DNA of 52,493 nucleotides from Oscillospiraceae bacterium (lineage in GTDB: Bacteria; Bacillota; Clostridia; Oscillospirales; Oscillospiraceae). The first letter of the stretch is position 1, and each line of letters begins with the position of its first letter. Of this stretch, positions 42,636 to 50,631 are shown one piece after another. Position numbers and translations under genes: made by a program. The notes beneath the pieces were generated by a model. That model was not told the DNA's origin. It did not search any database and saw only the letters and a list, made by a program, of their open reading frames with translations. The stretch lies in assembly GCA_009781855.1 (NCBI GenBank), contig WQUY01000010.1:1-52493 (forward strand), read 5' to 3'.

Positions 42636-44447
42636 TTAACTTTTATCATTAAAGTGCGTAAATATGCTGTTTGCCACAGGCTTTGGTACAACCGCAGACA
42701 ACTCCTCGACCGAAGCAGCAGCAATTGCTTTCAAACTGCCAAAGCGCTTTAGCAACTCATTTCGGCGCTTCTCCCCTACACCCTCTATAGCATCAAGCTT
42801 TGACTTATGACTGCCTTTAGAGCGTAAACTTCTATGATACTCAACTGCAAATCTATGCGTCTCTTCCTGAATCGTGCCAATGAGTGCAAACACCGCCGGA
42901 TTAGAAGCAATCCCGATTTCTTCACCCTGCGGAGTCACAAGCGCACGTGTTTTGTGTTTATCATCTTTTACCATGCCAAAAACCGGAATCGCGACTCCGG
43001 ATTCATCCAAAACCTTTAGCGCAACAGCAGCATGAACCGCCCCACCATCAATCAGCATAATATCCGGTAATTTTGAAAACTTTGCATCCTTATCTGTGTA
43101 TCTCGCAATTCTTCTTGAAATGACCTCAGCCATACTCGCAAAATCATTCTGGTCACTCAGAGTCTTTATCTTAAATCTCCTATAATCTTTTTTGTATGGC
43201 TTGCCCTTTTCAAAAACAGTCATTGAGGCAACTATATCAGACTTTCCGGTATTCGAGATGTCGAATGCTTCAATTCTGTTTGGCGTATCGGATAGCTTTA
43301 GTGCTTGCGCAAGCCACTGATGAGTTTTCAGAGTCTTTTCTTCATATGTTGAAGCACGTTCGCTTTCTTCTCTGGCGTTGATGTTAGCTGTCTCTACTAT
43401 TTTTGCTTTATCCCCACGTTGAGGTGATATCACATGTACCTTCCTGCCTGCCTTTTCAGAAAACAGACGCGCCAACAGCTCTGAGTCTGAAGTAACAATC
43501 GGCAAGCATATTGTCTCGGGCAAAAAACCGCGTTTTTCATAATATTGCCGGACAAGCCCCGACACTGCTTCCGCGTCATGTTCAATTGGCGTATCAAAAA
43601 GCTCAAAATCCTTGGAAATCAACTTCCCAGCAATAAAATGCAAAATAGTGAGGCAGCTTTTTGCAGGGCCTCGGAAAAACCCAACGACATCCATGTCTGC
43701 CAGCGAGCCTGCGATGACTAACTGTTTTTTCTGCAGAAATTCGACCGCACGCAGCCTATCTCGCTTTTCCGCAGCAATTTCGAACGAAAGACTTTCGGCA
43801 GCCTCATTCATCTCTTTTGTCAGTTTATCAATCAGCCCTGAAGTTTTTCCTTGAAAAATATCGACAGCTGCCGAAATAAGTTCCCTATATTCTTTATGCA
43901 TCTGTGCGCTCTGGCAGTATGCGCGGCAAGCGCCTATATGAAAATTCAAACAGGGTCTGTCCTTGCCTAAAATCTTGCTGATGTCTTTTCCACATGCAGG
44001 CAGTTTCAACGCTTTGCTCACCGCTACAATGGCTTCAGTCGTTATTGATCGGCCACCATATGGGCCGAGATACAGCGCTCCGTCATTTTCGGGTCTCGAA
44101 ACAACTTTGAATTGAGGGTATGCGCTTTTTAGGTTTACTTTTATGAACGGATATCCTTTGTCATCTCTGAGCATTATATTATATTTGGGCAAGTGGTGCT
44201 TAATGAGTGAGCTTTCAAGAACCAGTGCTTCAAATTCTGTATTTACTATAATTACGTCAAAATCATCTATGCGCAAAACTAAAGATTCGGTCTTTGCATC
44301 ATGAGTTCCGGTAAAGTAGCTGCTGACACGGTTTTTGAGCCGGCCGGCTTTTCCGACGTAAATAACTCCGCCCTGTTTGTCTTTCATTATGTACACGCCC
44401 GGCAGTGCCGGAAGGCCTAACGCCTTTGTTTGTAGTTTAGCTCTCAC
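42636..44447 (-). CDS. uvrC: Excinuclease ABC subunit UvrC
   Basis: This 603-residue nuclease makes both incisions in nucleotide excision repair. The GIY-YIG domain comes first (PGVYIMKDKQGGVIYVGKAGRL, cut here as PGVYIMKD and IYVGKAG), followed by the UVR helix region near 200-235. The RNase H-like domain contains EAFDISNTGKSDIVASM, and a C-terminal HhH region reads LDAIEGVGEKRRNELLKRFG. I chose GTG 44447, five bases after GAGG, over an ATG 21 bases earlier without a site. It is divergent from the DNA ligase gene. Confidence 0.94.
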   Translation of the reverse strand: MRAKLQTKALGLPALPGVYIMKDKQGGVIYVGKAGRLKNRVSSYFTGTHDAKTESLVLRIDDFDVIIVNTEFEALVLESSLIKHHLPKYNIMLRDDKGYPFIKVNLKSAYPQFKVVSRPENDGALYLGPYGGRSITTEAIVAVSKALKLPACGKDISKILGKDRPCLNFHIGACRAYCQSAQMHKEYRELISAAVDIFQGKTSGLIDKLTKEMNEAAESLSFEIAAEKRDRLRAVEFLQKKQLVIAGSLADMDVVGFFRGPAKSCLTILHFIAGKLISKDFELFDTPIEHDAEAVSGLVRQYYEKRGFLPETICLPIVTSDSELLARLFSEKAGRKVHVISPQRGDKAKIVETANINAREESERASTYEEKTLKTHQWLAQALKLSDTPNRIEAFDISNTGKSDIVASMTVFEKGKPYKKDYRRFKIKTLSDQNDFASMAEVISRRIARYTDKDAKFSKLPDIMLIDGGAVHAAVALKVLDESGVAIPVFGMVKDDKHKTRALVTPQGEEIGIASNPAVFALIGTIQEETHRFAVEYHRSLRSKGSHKSKLDAIEGVGEKRRNELLKRFGSLKAIAAASVEELSAVVPKPVANSIFTHFNDKS

Positions 44448-44547
44448 TTCGTCCTCTCGTGCGCGCAAGCTTGCTTGGCGCGACGCTCACTTCGTCTGAT
44501 TATAGTAGCTCTTATTATAACATAAAATTTATAGAAAATCGTAATAA

Positions 44548-44577
44548 TTGTACAAATCTGAAAATTTATAGTACAAT
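44548..44577 (+). promoter_or_regulatory. Promoter of the DNA ligase gene with inverted repeat
   Basis: TTGTAC (44548-44553), an 18-base spacer and TACAAT (44572-44577). The two hexamers lie within an inverted repeat, ATTGTAC (44547-44553) and GTACAAT (44571-44577), which could be an operator or chance. Two minus-strand TATAAT boxes nearby may serve uvrC. Confidence 0.55.
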
Positions 44578-44611
44578 AGCTGAACTAAAAACAAGGGAGC
44601 TATCCGTTAAT

Positions 44612-45919
44612 ATGCAAGACATTATAAAAGACAGGGCGGTCATGGAGCTATTTGTTTTGCTCTCCAAAACAAGCTCGAATAATGCAAAAAAAGATATCAT
44701 TATTGCCAATGCTGAAAACGAGCATTTTCTTAAGTTTCTCGACTATTTGCTCAACCCCTTTCTCATCACAGGCATCTCTACAAAAAAGATAACGAAAGAA
44801 ACCGAAAAAACTTCGACCTCAACAAAGATCTTTGACTCATTTTCTGATTTGATGCAGTACATACTTCAAAACAACACCGGAAATGATGAAGTTATCGCAA
44901 ACATCAGACATTTTTTGTCAACATATGAACAGGATTTGCGTGATTTCTATTCGTCTATCATTACAAAAAGCGCCAAAATCGGCTGCGATATCAAATCTGT
45001 AAATAAAGCGCTGGGACGGGAGTTTATACCGCAATGGGAAGTTCAGCAGGGATATAATATTGAAAAATATCCGTTAAAAGAAGACGAGTGGTTTTCACTC
45101 TCTCAGAAGTTAAACGGCGTTCGTGGCACTTTCTTCGAAGGCAAAATAATCAGCCGTCAAGGCAAGGAGTTTATTGGTCTTGAACATATCATCGAAGACA
45201 TCAATCGACTTTTCCCTGTTTCTGATGACTGGGTACTTGATGGTGAGCTGGTGCGCAACAATACTGAGGGTCTTGCGGATAACGAGAATTTCAGGATAGG
45301 TACAGGACTGCTCAGTCAGGATGATGCCGATAAGCACAGTATGCAATTTATTGTCTTTGATATTTTGCCAAAAGCTGAGTTTGTCGCCGCTGAAAGTGCG
45401 CTTACTTATATGCTTCGCCTAAATGAACTCAGGGAGATTGGCGAAGCGGTGAATCATTTGAATCTAGAGTCCATCAGGCTTGTTGAGATTCTGTATACCG
45501 GTTGCGACCTGTCGATGATTGACCATTTCCTTGATCAAATGGTTAGCCAAGATAAGGAAGGTCTTATGCTCAATCGTGATAAAAAATATTATCGCAAAAG
45601 GCATAATGGCATACTCAAAGTCAAGAGATTTTATACTGTAGATTTGCAAGTTACAGCAACGGAAGAGGGCTCCGGTCGACTGCTCGGCAAGCTTGGCGCT
45701 TTTGTAGTAGCGTATAAAGGTACCGCAGTAAACGTAGGTTCAGGCATGACAGATGAGCAGCGGGATGAGTTCTGGCAAGCACGCGACAGCCTGGTTGGTC
45801 GTGTTATTGAAGTGAAGTATAAGGAAGAAAGCATGGACAAAAAAACCGGCCATTACAGCTTGCAATTTCCTATCTTCATAGCTCTGCGCGAAGAAGGCAA
45901 AGAAGTGAGTATGTATTAG
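44612..45919 (+). CDS. ATP-dependent DNA ligase, phage type
   Basis: This 435-residue protein starts at ATG 44612 with GGGAG about 11 bases upstream. A helical N-terminal domain at about 1-150 ends in CDIKSVNKALGREFIPQW, as in phage ligases. The adenylation domain has motif I K166-L-N-G, where the usual K-x-D-G aspartate is Asn, motif III WVLDGELV (207-214), motif IV EGLMLN and motif V LKVKRF. A C-terminal OB domain follows. It seals nicks in duplex DNA using ATP, beside the normal NAD-dependent LigA. No Ku, LigD polymerase domain or phage gene is adjacent. It could be a domesticated phage gene, or possibly an RNA-repair ligase. Confidence 0.87.
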   Translation: MQDIIKDRAVMELFVLLSKTSSNNAKKDIIIANAENEHFLKFLDYLLNPFLITGISTKKITKETEKTSTSTKIFDSFSDLMQYILQNNTGNDEVIANIRHFLSTYEQDLRDFYSSIITKSAKIGCDIKSVNKALGREFIPQWEVQQGYNIEKYPLKEDEWFSLSQKLNGVRGTFFEGKIISRQGKEFIGLEHIIEDINRLFPVSDDWVLDGELVRNNTEGLADNENFRIGTGLLSQDDADKHSMQFIVFDILPKAEFVAAESALTYMLRLNELREIGEAVNHLNLESIRLVEILYTGCDLSMIDHFLDQMVSQDKEGLMLNRDKKYYRKRHNGILKVKRFYTVDLQVTATEEGSGRLLGKLGAFVVAYKGTAVNVGSGMTDEQRDEFWQARDSLVGRVIEVKYKEESMDKKTGHYSLQFPIFIALREEGKEVSMY

Positions 45920-47017: not shown

Positions 47018-47099
47018 CTAGTGTAACGAATTCCAAATACGCTACACTAGTACTCCCTTCTCAAAATTTGCAAACTTATTTCAAGAACGAAGTACTAGT
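47018..47099 (+). promoter_or_regulatory. Leader region with two mutually exclusive hairpins
   Basis: CTAGTGTA (47018-47025) pairs with TACACTAG (47043-47050). ACTAGTACT (47046-47054) pairs with AGTACTAGT (47091-47099). Bases 47046-47050 belong to both stems, so only one can form. No T run follows hairpin 1. The second stem ends 10 bases before the GGAG region of the fusion gene. Confidence 0.5.
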
Positions 47100-47124
47100 A
47101 ACAATCAAAAATATGGAGATTCCT

Positions 47125-50100
47125 ATGTTGTTTAAAGTATATTGTAGAGCATTTCAATTTATTATGAAATATGCGGCTTATGTTTTGCCATGGAGAAAAC
47201 CGGTACTTCTTGAGGGTGAGGGCTGTTTGAAAGAGCTGCCCGGACGCATCGAAAAAAAGGGAATCAAGAGCATACTGCTTGTGACAGATAGTACTATTAT
47301 GTCGCTTGGGCTTGCCGATACACTGATCTCCAACTTGATTGATGCCGGTATAGATACCGCTGTATATGACAAAACCGTTCCAAACCCTACAATCATCAAT
47401 ATTGAAGAAGCTCTGACAATGTATCATGAAAACGAATGTAAGGGCATTATTGCATTCGGCGGCGGTTCACCTATGGATTGCGCAAAAGGTGTAGGCGCAC
47501 GTGTGGCGCGACCCACAAAGAGCATCAGGCAAATGAAAGGTCTGCTTAAAGTTATTTTTCGTCTGCCCCCACTCTATGCTGTCGCAACGACGGCAGGAAC
47601 AGGAAGTGAAGCGACCGTCGCAGCAGTCGTTGTCGATAGCGATACTCAGGAAAAGTATGCACTTATGGATCCGGCTCTCATTCCGCACGAGGCCGTTTTA
47701 GATCCTTTGCTGACCGTAGGGCTTCCTCCGATTGTAACCGCAACAACAGGCATGGACGCCCTTACTCACGCCATTGAAGCATATATAGGAAACAGCAATA
47801 CCAACCAAACCCGTGCCATGGCAAAAGAAACAGTTAAGCTTGTGTTTGAAAATCTTTACAAGGCATTCAAAAACGGCAAGAATATAACTGCCCGTGCAAA
47901 CATGCAACGTGCGGCATATTACGGCGGCATCGCTTTTACTCGCGCTTATGTGGGTAATGTACACGCTATCGCACATGCACTTGGCGGTAAGCTGGGCATT
48001 GCACATGGACTTGCGAATGCCGTAGTCTTGCCGTATGTTCTTGACGATTATGGTGCAGCTGTATACAAACCTTTGGCAGAACTTGCTGATCTTTTGGAAA
48101 TCCCCGGCAGTACGGCAGAAAAAAAAGCAAAGGCTTTGATTTCTGAAATTAGCAATTTAAACACCCGCATGGGCATTCCTGAAACATTAGAAGGGATCAG
48201 CGAGGAAGATATTCCGTCCTTGTCAGATCATGCATATAAAGAAGCAAACCCCACTTATCCTGTTCCCGTGATATTTGAACGAGAGGACTTTGCCAGTGTA
48301 TATTACCGTCTTATGGGCAAATCCGGATTCCCCGGCTATACCGGAAAGATTGCAAATATCAACCTTACAACCAGTAAAGTTTCAAAATTCACACTTCAAA
48401 AAGATGATTTGAAAAATTATGTCGGTGGCAAAGGCCTTGCTGCAAAAATAATATATTCCACACTTGACAGTAAGGTTGAAGCATTCTCGGAAGAAAATCC
48501 GATTGTCATAACAACTTCTCCGCTAAACGGCGCTCATGCCCCTAGCTCTTCCCGATTTAATATTTCTACCATCTCACCGCTGACGGGTCTGCTTGTCTCT
48601 TCAAATTGCGGTGGTGACTTTGGGTTGTCGTTACGGCGTGCCGGATACGATGCGCTGATTATCAGTGGCGTATCTTCTAAACCAAAATATATAAAGATAA
48701 ATGATAAAGGTATAAGGCTCTATGATGCCAGTTCCATGTGGGGTAAAAGCACATCTGAAGCTCAAGAGATGATGGGTTTGGGTGGCAAGTTGGTCATTGG
48801 ACAGGCCGGAGAAAACCTTGTAAGGTACGCATGTGTTGCCAGCGCAGAGCGCGTTTCAGGGCGCGGCGGCGTCGGGGCTGTCTTCGGATATAAGAATCTC
48901 AAAGGCATTGTTGCTGACAGTAAATCTACTATTGCAACGATTAGTGACGATTCAAAAGCACTGAATATAAAATGGATATCACATCTACGTAATCATCCGC
49001 TAACCGGCAAGCAACTGCCAAAACTGGGTACGTCCGCACTGGTCAGCATGATGCAATACAATGGGTTGCTTGCAACAAAAAATTACTCTTCCGGGCAATA
49101 TAAAGACTTCGAAAGCATCAGCGGCGAGACATTACTTGAAAATCATCTGGTCAAAAACTCCGGATGTGTGAGTTGCCCTATTCGTTGCGGGCGCGTTGTC
49201 AAACTTGGTGGTGCAGAAGTCAAGGGGCCTGAGCTGGAGACACTGGGGCTTTTGGGTAGCAATCTTTGCAACAATAACATGGATAGCATCATCAAGCTCA
49301 ATTATCTGTGCGATGAGTATGGTATTGATACAATCTCGTTCGGCGGCTCTGTTGGGTTTGCGATGGAGCTTAACGAAAAGAGACTTTGGAATAATGGTTT
49401 GAATTTTGGCGACTCTAGTTCACTTGAAGATTTGCTGAAACTCGTAGCAACTCGTGAGGGCATCGGTAATGATATTGCTGATGGTGTAAAAGAAATGGCA
49501 GAGAAATATGGCGGCCGGGAGTTTGCCATGCATGTTAAGGGCATGGAGCTTGCCGCTTATGATCCACGCGCAGCACAGGGCATGGGGCTTGGTTATGCAA
49601 CGGCAAATCGCGGTGGATGTCATTTAAACGGCGGTTACACAGTAGTTTTGGAAGGACTTGGTTTGAGGGTCAATGGCTCAACAACTATTGGCAAAGCTGC
49701 TTTAACAGTCTTTTTCCAAGACCTCATGGAAGCTGCTTCGGCTGCCGGAAGTTGCTTGTTTACAACCTATGCTGTATTGCCCGCAGCGCTTGTCAAAAAT
49801 CCAAACAAATTCTTTACTCGGGCTGCCTGCTTTTTGCTGCCATATATGGGTGGTCTCCTCCACTTTCTACACAATCATGCCGGCCTTCTTGGGCTCAATC
49901 TTCCACACATGCTTCCGCATCCTTATGCCGTTAAGTTGGCTACCCGCAGAAATATGAATATTGGTCAGTTTATCCGTGCCGGTGAGCGCATATACAACAT
50001 CGAGCGTTTGGTAAACATACGTCAGGGGTTGACTGATGGCGACACTTTGCCTGATCGTCTGAAATCCCCTTTGCGTAATAAGCCCGGTCAAAAATTAGTT

Positions 50101-50202
50101 GCGCTTGATAAGATGCTTAAAAAATACTACAGAATCCGCGGCTGGGATGCACATGGCAAGCCAACAAAACGGAGACTTAAAAAGCTGGGCTTGGAGCAGT
50201 AA
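47125..50202 (+). CDS. Fusion of iron-containing alcohol dehydrogenase and aldehyde ferredoxin oxidoreductase
   Basis: This 1025-residue open frame starts at ATG 47125, six bases after GGAG. Residues about 25-398 are a complete Fe-ADH: GGGSPMDCAKG (112-122), TTAGTGSE (155-162) and metal ligands Asp211, His215, His280 and His294 with the canonical 4- and 14-residue spacings. Residues about 402-1025 are a complete tungsten AOR: an AOR-N domain (NYVGGKGLAAK, SSSRFNIST), then cluster cysteines Cys681-x2-Cys684-x3-Cys688 and Cys877. The tungstopterin-binding part is complete by length. The predicted reaction is alcohol to aldehyde (NAD-linked) and aldehyde to acid (ferredoxin-linked), or the reverse. 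There is no stop or frame change at the junction. The MoaD-like gene follows directly. Confidence 0.9.
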   Translation: MLFKVYCRAFQFIMKYAAYVLPWRKPVLLEGEGCLKELPGRIEKKGIKSILLVTDSTIMSLGLADTLISNLIDAGIDTAVYDKTVPNPTIINIEEALTMYHENECKGIIAFGGGSPMDCAKGVGARVARPTKSIRQMKGLLKVIFRLPPLYAVATTAGTGSEATVAAVVVDSDTQEKYALMDPALIPHEAVLDPLLTVGLPPIVTATTGMDALTHAIEAYIGNSNTNQTRAMAKETVKLVFENLYKAFKNGKNITARANMQRAAYYGGIAFTRAYVGNVHAIAHALGGKLGIAHGLANAVVLPYVLDDYGAAVYKPLAELADLLEIPGSTAEKKAKALISEISNLNTRMGIPETLEGISEEDIPSLSDHAYKEANPTYPVPVIFEREDFASVYYRLMGKSGFPGYTGKIANINLTTSKVSKFTLQKDDLKNYVGGKGLAAKIIYSTLDSKVEAFSEENPIVITTSPLNGAHAPSSSRFNISTISPLTGLLVSSNCGGDFGLSLRRAGYDALIISGVSSKPKYIKINDKGIRLYDASSMWGKSTSEAQEMMGLGGKLVIGQAGENLVRYACVASAERVSGRGGVGAVFGYKNLKGIVADSKSTIATISDDSKALNIKWISHLRNHPLTGKQLPKLGTSALVSMMQYNGLLATKNYSSGQYKDFESISGETLLENHLVKNSGCVSCPIRCGRVVKLGGAEVKGPELETLGLLGSNLCNNNMDSIIKLNYLCDEYGIDTISFGGSVGFAMELNEKRLWNNGLNFGDSSSLEDLLKLVATREGIGNDIADGVKEMAEKYGGREFAMHVKGMELAAYDPRAAQGMGLGYATANRGGCHLNGGYTVVLEGLGLRVNGSTTIGKAALTVFFQDLMEAASAAGSCLFTTYAVLPAALVKNPNKFFTRAACFLLPYMGGLLHFLHNHAGLLGLNLPHMLPHPYAVKLATRRNMNIGQFIRAGERIYNIERLVNIRQGLTDGDTLPDRLKSPLRNKPGQKLVALDKMLKKYYRIRGWDAHGKPTKRRLKKLGLEQ

Positions 50203-50203
50203 C

Positions 50204-50455
50204 GTGGAGATGGCAACTGTGAAAATCAAGTTGTTTGGTTTATTAAGTATCTATGGTGGGCCTCGCACAGTTTCGGTTCAGGCAAACACTGTAGGTGAGG
50301 CACTGAAAATAGCCGGAGCAATGGGTGTTGACAAAAGTCTTCTAAAGGAAGCCTTGATTTTCGTTAATGACCGCCCGGTTCGCAATAGCAGGCGTACATA
50401 CAAGCTCAATGATGGTGATGAGATTGCACTGCTGTCCCCATCCGGAGGCGGATAG
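50204..50455 (+). CDS. MoaD/ThiS-like sulfur carrier protein
   Basis: This 83-residue protein starts at GTG 50204, one base after the fusion gene stop, with GGAG seven bases upstream inside that gene. It has the ubiquitin-like pattern of MoaD: KIKLFGLLSIYGG, then NDRPV and NDGDEIALLSPSGGG. The C-terminal Gly-Gly-Gly ends at the stop, giving the Gly-Gly terminus that is adenylated and thiocarboxylated. MoaD donates sulfur to make the dithiolene of molybdopterin or tungstopterin, the cofactor required by the AOR half of the neighbour. The partner MoaE and MoeB-type activator are not in the window. A carrier dedicated to the tungsten enzyme is likely. Confidence 0.88.
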   Translation: MEMATVKIKLFGLLSIYGGPRTVSVQANTVGEALKIAGAMGVDKSLLKEALIFVNDRPVRNSRRTYKLNDGDEIALLSPSGGG

Positions 50456-50554: not shown

Positions 50555-50631
50555 GCGCTTGTAGCTCAGCAGGATAGAGCATCTGCCTTCTAAGCAGAGG
50601 GTCGGGGGTTCGAGTCCCTCCAAGCGTGCCA
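50555..50631 (+). tRNA. tRNA-Arg (anticodon UCU)
   Basis: Acceptor GCGCTTG pairs with CAAGCGT (one G-U), with discriminator G and encoded CCA. D-arm AGCTCAGCAGGATAGAGC, anticodon stem TCTGC/GCAGA with loop CTTCTAA (anticodon UCU, reads AGA and AGG), and T-arm GGGGGTTCGAGTCCCTC are standard. It has its own promoter and terminator. Confidence 0.97.

Follow-up and report, generated by a model that had tools for sequence, protein, structure and literature searches.

How do an iron-dependent alcohol dehydrogenase (ADH) and an aldehyde ferredoxin oxidoreductase (AOR) come to share one open reading frame (ORF), and what might the resulting protein do? The question is raised by contig WQUY01000010.1 of a gut bacterium of the Oscillospiraceae (assembly GCA_009781855.1), whose positions 1 to 52,493 on the forward strand constitute the stretch of DNA analysed here, termed the window; the genome that holds it is designated G000. 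On the plus strand of the window, the ORF at 47125-50202 runs without a stop from 47125 to 50199, ends with TAA at 50200-50202 and encodes 1025 amino acids, and the chance of 1025 stop-free codons in random sequence at the G+C content of the window is about 3e-26. Upstream of the ATG at 47125 the frame remains open as far as a TTG at 47068. Pfam domains score above their gathering thresholds over both halves of the protein: Fe-ADH (PF00465) at residues 29-194 (144.5 bits versus 31.3) and ADH_Fe_C at 205-394 (157.2 versus 27), followed by AFOR_N at 407-598 (213.9 versus 29.8) and AFOR_C at 616-1023 (381.9 versus 27), with about 10 residues between the ADH and the AOR domains. The window ORF is confirmed as an entire iron-dependent (group III) ADH followed by an entire AOR-family domain in one frame.

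Residues, conservation and predicted structure of the fusion

Residues were compared in an alignment that set five fusions beside 28 rows of ADHs and 29 of AORs; three of these rows are halves of the reversed fusions described below. The metal ligands D211, H215, H280 and H294 and the GGGS at 112-115 are present in the ADH half; D211, H215 and H294 are conserved in all five fusions and H280 in four, and the 28 other ADH rows have all four ligands. D55 stands at the place of what we take to be the NAD-preferring Asp, D39 of FucO. In the AOR half, alignment to P. furiosus AOR locates the [4Fe-4S] ligands C681, C684, C688 and C877, together with the active-site residues T636, E703, E705, Y812, H833 and Y838. 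The first three cysteines are conserved in 5/5 fusions and 29/29 other rows, and C877 in 5/5 fusions and in each other row with a letter at that column. The second-shell residues described for AOR (Thr243, Glu313, Tyr427 and His448 in P. furiosus numbering; PMC12096430) correspond to T636, E705, Y812 and H833 of the window protein; three of them are conserved in all five fusions, and E705 in four, the copy in genome G004 having Asn. Key residues are thus intact in four of the five fused copies. The nearest solved relatives of the ADH half are 1,3-propanediol, methanol and lactaldehyde/alcohol dehydrogenases and that of the AOR half is P. furiosus AOR; Foldseek with the predicted model returned the same two sets of relatives, and a viral structure library gave zero matches at E <= 0.001.

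Among 19 genomes of the genus, the complete fused frame is found in G000 itself, G002, G006 and G013, and in G004 it covers model positions 2-1002 before the contig stops. Two further genomes contain part of the fusion: G016 the AOR half only, entering from the contig start, and G007 the ADH half only. The G016 contig is identical to WQRL01000245.1 of the metagenome-assembled genome Co191P1bin31, labelled Oscillospiraceae, Co191 being the litter-feeding termite Cornitermes sp. (PMC7024585). The four other fused copies are 61-68% identical to the window protein. Synonymous sites are saturated or nearly so (pS, the proportion of differences at them, 0.73-0.92), the nonsynonymous proportion pN is 0.15-0.30 and similar in both halves, and the whole frame has therefore long been under purifying selection. 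Only a few kb from the fusion, G002, G004 and G006 have homologues of uvrC and of an ATP-dependent DNA ligase gene, which are absent from the G013 stretch; in the window these two genes adjoin on opposite strands at 42636-45919. Given the fused frame in four other genomes, near-saturated synonymous sites and the presence of uvrC and the ligase nearby in three of the four, the fusion is not an assembly artefact.

The AlphaFold2 prediction for the window protein (61 alignment rows) has a mean predicted local distance difference test (pLDDT) score of 93.3, a predicted template modelling (pTM) score of 0.87 and zero residues under a pLDDT of 50. A first-pass annotation of this DNA had proposed a single uninterrupted frame of 1025 residues with a full iron ADH and a full AOR, and ORF and Pfam domains agree on it; the eight metal and cluster ligands that it named are correct in the alignment, and its concern that homologues of the two halves might always be separate, or the contig chimeric, is answered by the fused frame in four other genomes.

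Origin of the fusion and its recurrence in other lineages

The closest unfused pair among the matches listed belongs to another class of the phylum (G1185), with an ADH 57% and an AOR 60% identical to the window halves. In this genome the two ORFs share a reading frame and are separated by just one TAG, and the junction, YYKIKE*SAMYAYTGK, has the same length as that of the window protein, YYRLMGKSGFPGYTGK. The column of the former stop reads AAA in G000, G013, G006 and G002 and CAA in G004, either codon being one change from TAA. Since the spacing is equal and Lys or Gln codons occupy the stop column, loss of a stop codon in a tandem pair is suggested as the simplest reading of how the fusion arose.

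Trees of 66 AOR and 65 ADH rows, built with a quick method and with SH-aLRT support only, place the fused halves in one clade (AOR 100, including G016; ADH 95), and G1185 is the next branch outside the fused clade in both (AOR 100; ADH 97, outside G007). The G007 ADH falls outside the fused ADHs (95), and a group of G007, window and G013 is weakly disfavoured in the approximately unbiased (AU) test (p 0.04), for which the groups were chosen after the trees had been inspected. The end of the G007 ADH, however, retains the linker SG and, in the column of the former stop, has AAC, a sense codon, as though G007 had shed an AOR half. With the evidence so divided, G007 may be either a relic without its AOR half or an early branch that stands for the ancestral unfused state.

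A fusion of reversed order, AOR then ADH, occurs as a single ORF of 1054-1058 amino acids in 4 of the 10 genomes of genus g102. Placing both fusion types in one group is rejected by the AU test (AOR p 7.7e-33, ADH p 1.1e-4), and the g102 fusion is independent, its halves stemming from other AOR and ADH lineages. The AlphaFold model of this protein, obtained with a similar 59 rows, reaches a pLDDT of 91.8 and a pTM of 0.64, with a disordered linker at 640-650; of the two proteins, therefore, only that of the window is predicted to have a defined two-domain arrangement.

In the tree, the AOR branch of the window lies apart from the AOR of P. acidaminophilum, the sole AOR there from a named, studied bacterium. 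The stretch from about residue 881 to 948 comprises 65-72 residues in 52 of the 66 AOR rows and 25-29 in 7 others, 5 rows being too incomplete for the length comparison and 2 giving nothing. In the family sampled, this branch is usually found beside an ADH. Among 40 genomes of a 400-genome family sample with a listed AOR-half match reaching at least position 965, counts made by eye give a fused ADH in 7, an adjacent one on the same contig in 17 (two convergent), one on another contig in 7 and none listed in 9; a more distant ADH ORF adjoins the AOR in 4 of the latter, and 5 remain. In six genomes (G322, G188, G228, G168, G346 and G354), a polyferredoxin with four cluster motifs shares one frame with the ADH and the AOR lies upstream, and in others ADH, polyferredoxin and AOR are separate neighbours. 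At loci L067, L068, L069, L123, L124 and L125 the four-motif polyferredoxin is fused to the ADH N-terminus, and an AOR and a MoaD-like ORF lie upstream.

The genome searches were samples of 60, 19, 400, 295 (order), 341 (class) and 348 (phylum) genomes; at family, order, class and phylum level at most two candidates were scored per genome, and only long-frame or high-scoring candidates were inspected. Among the matches listed and inspected, the order, class and phylum samples contain no further single-ORF fusion. Several apparent fusions proved to be tandems, either by virtue of at least one in-frame stop between ADH and AOR (G977, G1185, G1270, G1250, G1210, G282, G180 and G251) or of separate ORFs (G1056, G1124 and G034), and the shared frame of several tandems is partly a selection effect, because same-frame pairs emerge as one match. 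Only 2 of 72,556 plasmid records covered at least 80% of the query, and neither encodes a fusion: in Natranaerobius an AOR piece and an ADH piece occupy separate ORFs, and in Halalkalicoccus the ADH and AOR genes are separate. The ADH N-terminal helix, considered as an AOR-docking feature, was discarded because ADHs from genomes without a listed branch AOR match also start at positions 2-5.

Other frames containing an ADH were encountered along the way. An ADH of the same subfamily is in frame with an aldehyde dehydrogenase (ALDH), in the order ADH-ALDH, at L112:919-4203 (G865), which has a YhhN match at its front, and at L127:1490-4219 (G401); InterPro is reported to hold only five ADH-ALDH proteins (PMC12454647). 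The frame at L126:1126-4500 (G245) has at least 1125 codons, of which more than 700 without a Pfam match precede the ADH, and it continues past the end of the stretch read.

Proposed catalysis and competing readings

The completeness of both halves, the conserved frame, the recurrent linkage and fusion, the predicted arrangement and a MoaD-like gene all support the view that the fusion protein may be a bifunctional acid-aldehyde-alcohol oxidoreductase, a functional counterpart of AdhE independent of coenzyme A (CoA), and we give this view an even chance. With ferredoxin, the C-terminal tungsten/[4Fe-4S] half would take an unactivated carboxylic acid to the aldehyde or back, and the N-terminal iron half would interconvert aldehyde and alcohol with NAD(H). 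From acid, the AOR half would make a small standing pool of aldehyde, to be reduced with NADH by the ADH half held against it. As the fusion would keep a reactive and thermodynamically scarce aldehyde local, the NADH-driven step could pull the ferredoxin-driven one, with a net direction from acid to alcohol that would be reversible in principle. We infer the catalysis, the tungsten, the redox partners, the aldehyde hand-over and the net direction from acid to alcohol; the proposals of a hand-over between halves and of a coupling of ferredoxin to NAD(H) are well motivated. The fuller claim, that a single CoA-free chain turns acids into alcohols with ferredoxin and NADH, the aldehyde being handed over where ADH and AOR meet in a fixed interface, and that the pair was fused twice in one family in opposite orders, is tentative and somewhat more likely to fail than to hold.

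Separate AOR and ADH enzymes form an acid-aldehyde-alcohol pathway (PMC10816221), and when AdhE removed the acetaldehyde in vitro, the rate at which AOR_X514 reduced acetate doubled from 7 to 14 mU/mg (PMC10816221). Downstream of the fusion lies a MoaD/ThiS-like gene (PF02597, 31.1 bits versus a cut-off of 22.5), which is probably co-transcribed with it. A MoaD-like homologue also follows the AOR half of G016, the AOR gene of P. acidaminophilum and, counted once per genome, stands by the AOR at 13 other loci of the branch. In the window and in G016 the gene fits a role in supplying the AOR half with a pterin cofactor, with no fixed operon. In the seven genomes that have all or part of the fusion, RnfC is above cut-off in all and AdhE in none, and MoaA is found in five, the two without it being 64% and 69% complete. 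Absence of AdhE may be common in the genus, since among the matches listed only G005 shows an AdhE-sized frame there. The RnfC and AdhE pattern permits ferredoxin/NAD coupling and leaves room for an AdhE substitute, and it proves neither.

Several observations weigh against the bifunctional reading. In the study of AOR_X514, neither of the purified ferredoxins gave any measured reduction of acid (PMC10816221), so that ferredoxin-driven acid reduction is insecure even for known AORs. The fusions of G002, G006 and G013 have no MoaD-like ORF as a neighbour, and neither does the pair of G1185, the search in G004 being bounded by the contig edge. In the stretches read (short for g102), no four-motif polyferredoxin ORF adjoins the fusions, and no electron-carrier gene adjoins a window-type fusion, with the exception of that for a two-motif Fe-S protein in G013, which goes with a second AOR encoded on the opposite strand. 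The remaining 12 of the 19 genus genomes have no match at E <= 1e-100. Two AOR positions deviate from P. furiosus, Tyr312 being Leu in the window protein (29 other rows: Leu in 15, Tyr in 11) and Asp489 being Ser (also in 25 of the 29). Finally, the G004 copy (L015:1498-4497) has an open frame, yet its changes D55N, G114T, S115F, H280G, H284N and E705N affect both halves: the ADH is without one of its metal ligands and without the GGGS that binds NAD, and the AOR is without its Glu. Catalysis looks abnormal in either half, as in a decaying or repurposed enzyme, and activity is not to be assumed for every fused copy.

The same enzyme might operate in the opposite direction, taking alcohol via aldehyde to acid and yielding NADH and reduced ferredoxin for Rnf or hydrogenase. 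Oxidation is established as the favourable direction of AOR catalysis (PMC12096430), and the RnfC result agrees with such a role. The thermodynamic gain of tethering, on the other hand, would be larger for acid reduction, and the sequence holds nothing that fixes a direction; we regard oxidation as unlikely, although the strongest of the alternatives. Plant material in termite guts yields aldehydes, and the two halves could instead consume one free aldehyde in detoxification or dismutation, one half making acid with ferredoxin and the other making alcohol with NADH, so that no hand-over would be needed. A detoxifying role of AOR has been proposed in a figure legend of PMC10816221, and G000 has 8 AFOR_C matches in its genome, but aldehyde removal alone would leave both the repeated fusion and the predicted fixed arrangement unexplained, and we consider it improbable.

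Less probable still is a tether serving expression or assembly only, in which one half works and the other is a scaffold, a regulator or a decaying partner. Pointing this way are the residue losses of G004 (which also affect the AOR Glu), the disordered linker of the reversed fusion and its pTM of 0.64, the retention of the ADH alone in G007, and the best NCBIfam match of the ADH half, the regulator ErcA (NF041833), which is far below cut-off (282.8 versus 550 bits). Conservation of the four ADH ligands in the fusions outside G004 and in every other ADH row argues against it, as does the similar pN of both halves. An assembly chimera or a miscalled stop at the junction is scarcely credible: the assemblies are fragmented, and one wrong base could mimic a fusion given the same-frame tandem of G1185, but five genomes have a sense codon at the junction column and the uvrC-ligase pair accompanies the fusion in four genomes, G000 included.

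Gene surroundings and relation to known systems

The features of the locus are collected in Table 1. An internal start for a free AOR was rejected, the ATG at M397 being without a clear ribosome-binding site and G002 reading CTC there. A promoter scan gave matches above those of shuffled sequences, yet no convincing promoter for the fusion gene. A tRNA-Arg (anticodon tct) lies at 50555-50631, just 3' of the MoaD-like gene. Elsewhere in G000, one of the 8 AFOR_C matches is a divergent AOR-family frame of 898 amino acids (L003:1411-4104, contig C13), next to which lies an Fe-S ORF with four motifs (L132:10600-11031).

Table 1. Coordinates of the fusion gene and associated features in the window.
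Feature	Position	Strand	Basis
Likely ribosome-binding site GGAG, 6 nt 5' of ATG 47125	47115..47118	+	Sequence reading
ADH-AOR fusion gene, 1025 aa plus stop	47125..50202	+	ORF, Pfam domains, fused frame in 4 other genomes
Iron-containing ADH half, residues 1-395	47125..48309	+	Pfam, residue alignment
Junction, residues 396-406	48310..48342	+	pLDDT block mean 83 at 401-410
Codon AAA (Lys399), column of the TAG stop in the unfused G1185 tandem	48319..48321	+	Junction alignment
AOR half, residues 407-1025	48343..50199	+	Pfam, alignment
Segment following the fourth cluster cysteine (residues ~882-947); AORs not in the branch are ~40 residues shorter here	49768..49965	+	
MoaD/ThiS-like gene, 81 aa, ends SGGG, 7 nt 3' of the fusion	50210..50455	+	Sequence, PF02597, homologues

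Already known are both enzyme families, the AOR-ADH pathway and aldehyde dehydrogenases fused to ADHs of this family. The pathway of Thermoanaerobacter X514 (PMC10816221) shares with the window protein its enzyme families and the proposed acid-aldehyde-alcohol chemistry, but distributes them over separate proteins, whereas the window encodes a single polypeptide. AdhE and BdhE (PMC12454647) also combine two steps linked by an aldehyde on a single polypeptide, one half of which is an ADH of the iron type; they themselves arose by fusion of neighbouring genes, a convergent outcome. Their partner, however, is an ALDH of the CoA or NAD type in the order ALDH-ADH, in contrast to the tungsten AOR and the order ADH-AOR of the window protein, and no ALDH domain (PF00171) is among the five Pfam families matched in the latter. 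The window protein may work like AdhE and BdhE, but it is not a member of their group. With the AORs sensu stricto of P. furiosus (1aor) and C. autoethanogenum (9g7j), the AOR half shares the fold (Foldseek TM 0.91 by target length, 36-37% identity), the cluster cysteines and the second-shell residues; it differs from them in some 40 additional residues that follow the fourth cysteine, in the two substitutions mentioned above and in the ADH in front. Among the unfused relatives in the branch, many have a gene for a polyferredoxin with four clusters next to the AOR, as do AorABC and WOR1 with their polyferredoxin subunit (PMC12096430), in contrast to the window fusion, which in the stretches read is without a polyferredoxin or flavin subunit gene beside it.

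No ADH-AOR fusion is described in the literature searched (open-licence PubMed Central papers). The tungsten-enzyme review (PMC12096430) does not use the words fused and fusion in its main text, nor does the paper on convergent fusions (PMC12454647) mention AOR, ferredoxin or tungsten in its own. The first-pass annotation did not know the arrangement as a described enzyme, in keeping with this search; its overall reading is supported in part: it stands as to the fusion, the domain identities and the ligands, and is refined by the placement of the AOR half in a branch with an insertion and by a second fusion in the opposite order.

An AOR plus ADH route from acid to alcohol is wanted in gas fermentation, where it is limited by the unfavourable acid step and by loose aldehyde. 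With a natural fusion, an independent fusion in the opposite order and an unfused tandem of equal spacing, the benefit of tethering or channelling becomes directly testable. The fusion also provides a third case, beside AdhE and BdhE, in which to ask whether contacts between enzymes arise before or after gene fusion. More broadly, the fusions point to a little-studied branch of AORs that is tied to ADH, polyferredoxin and MoaD-like genes.

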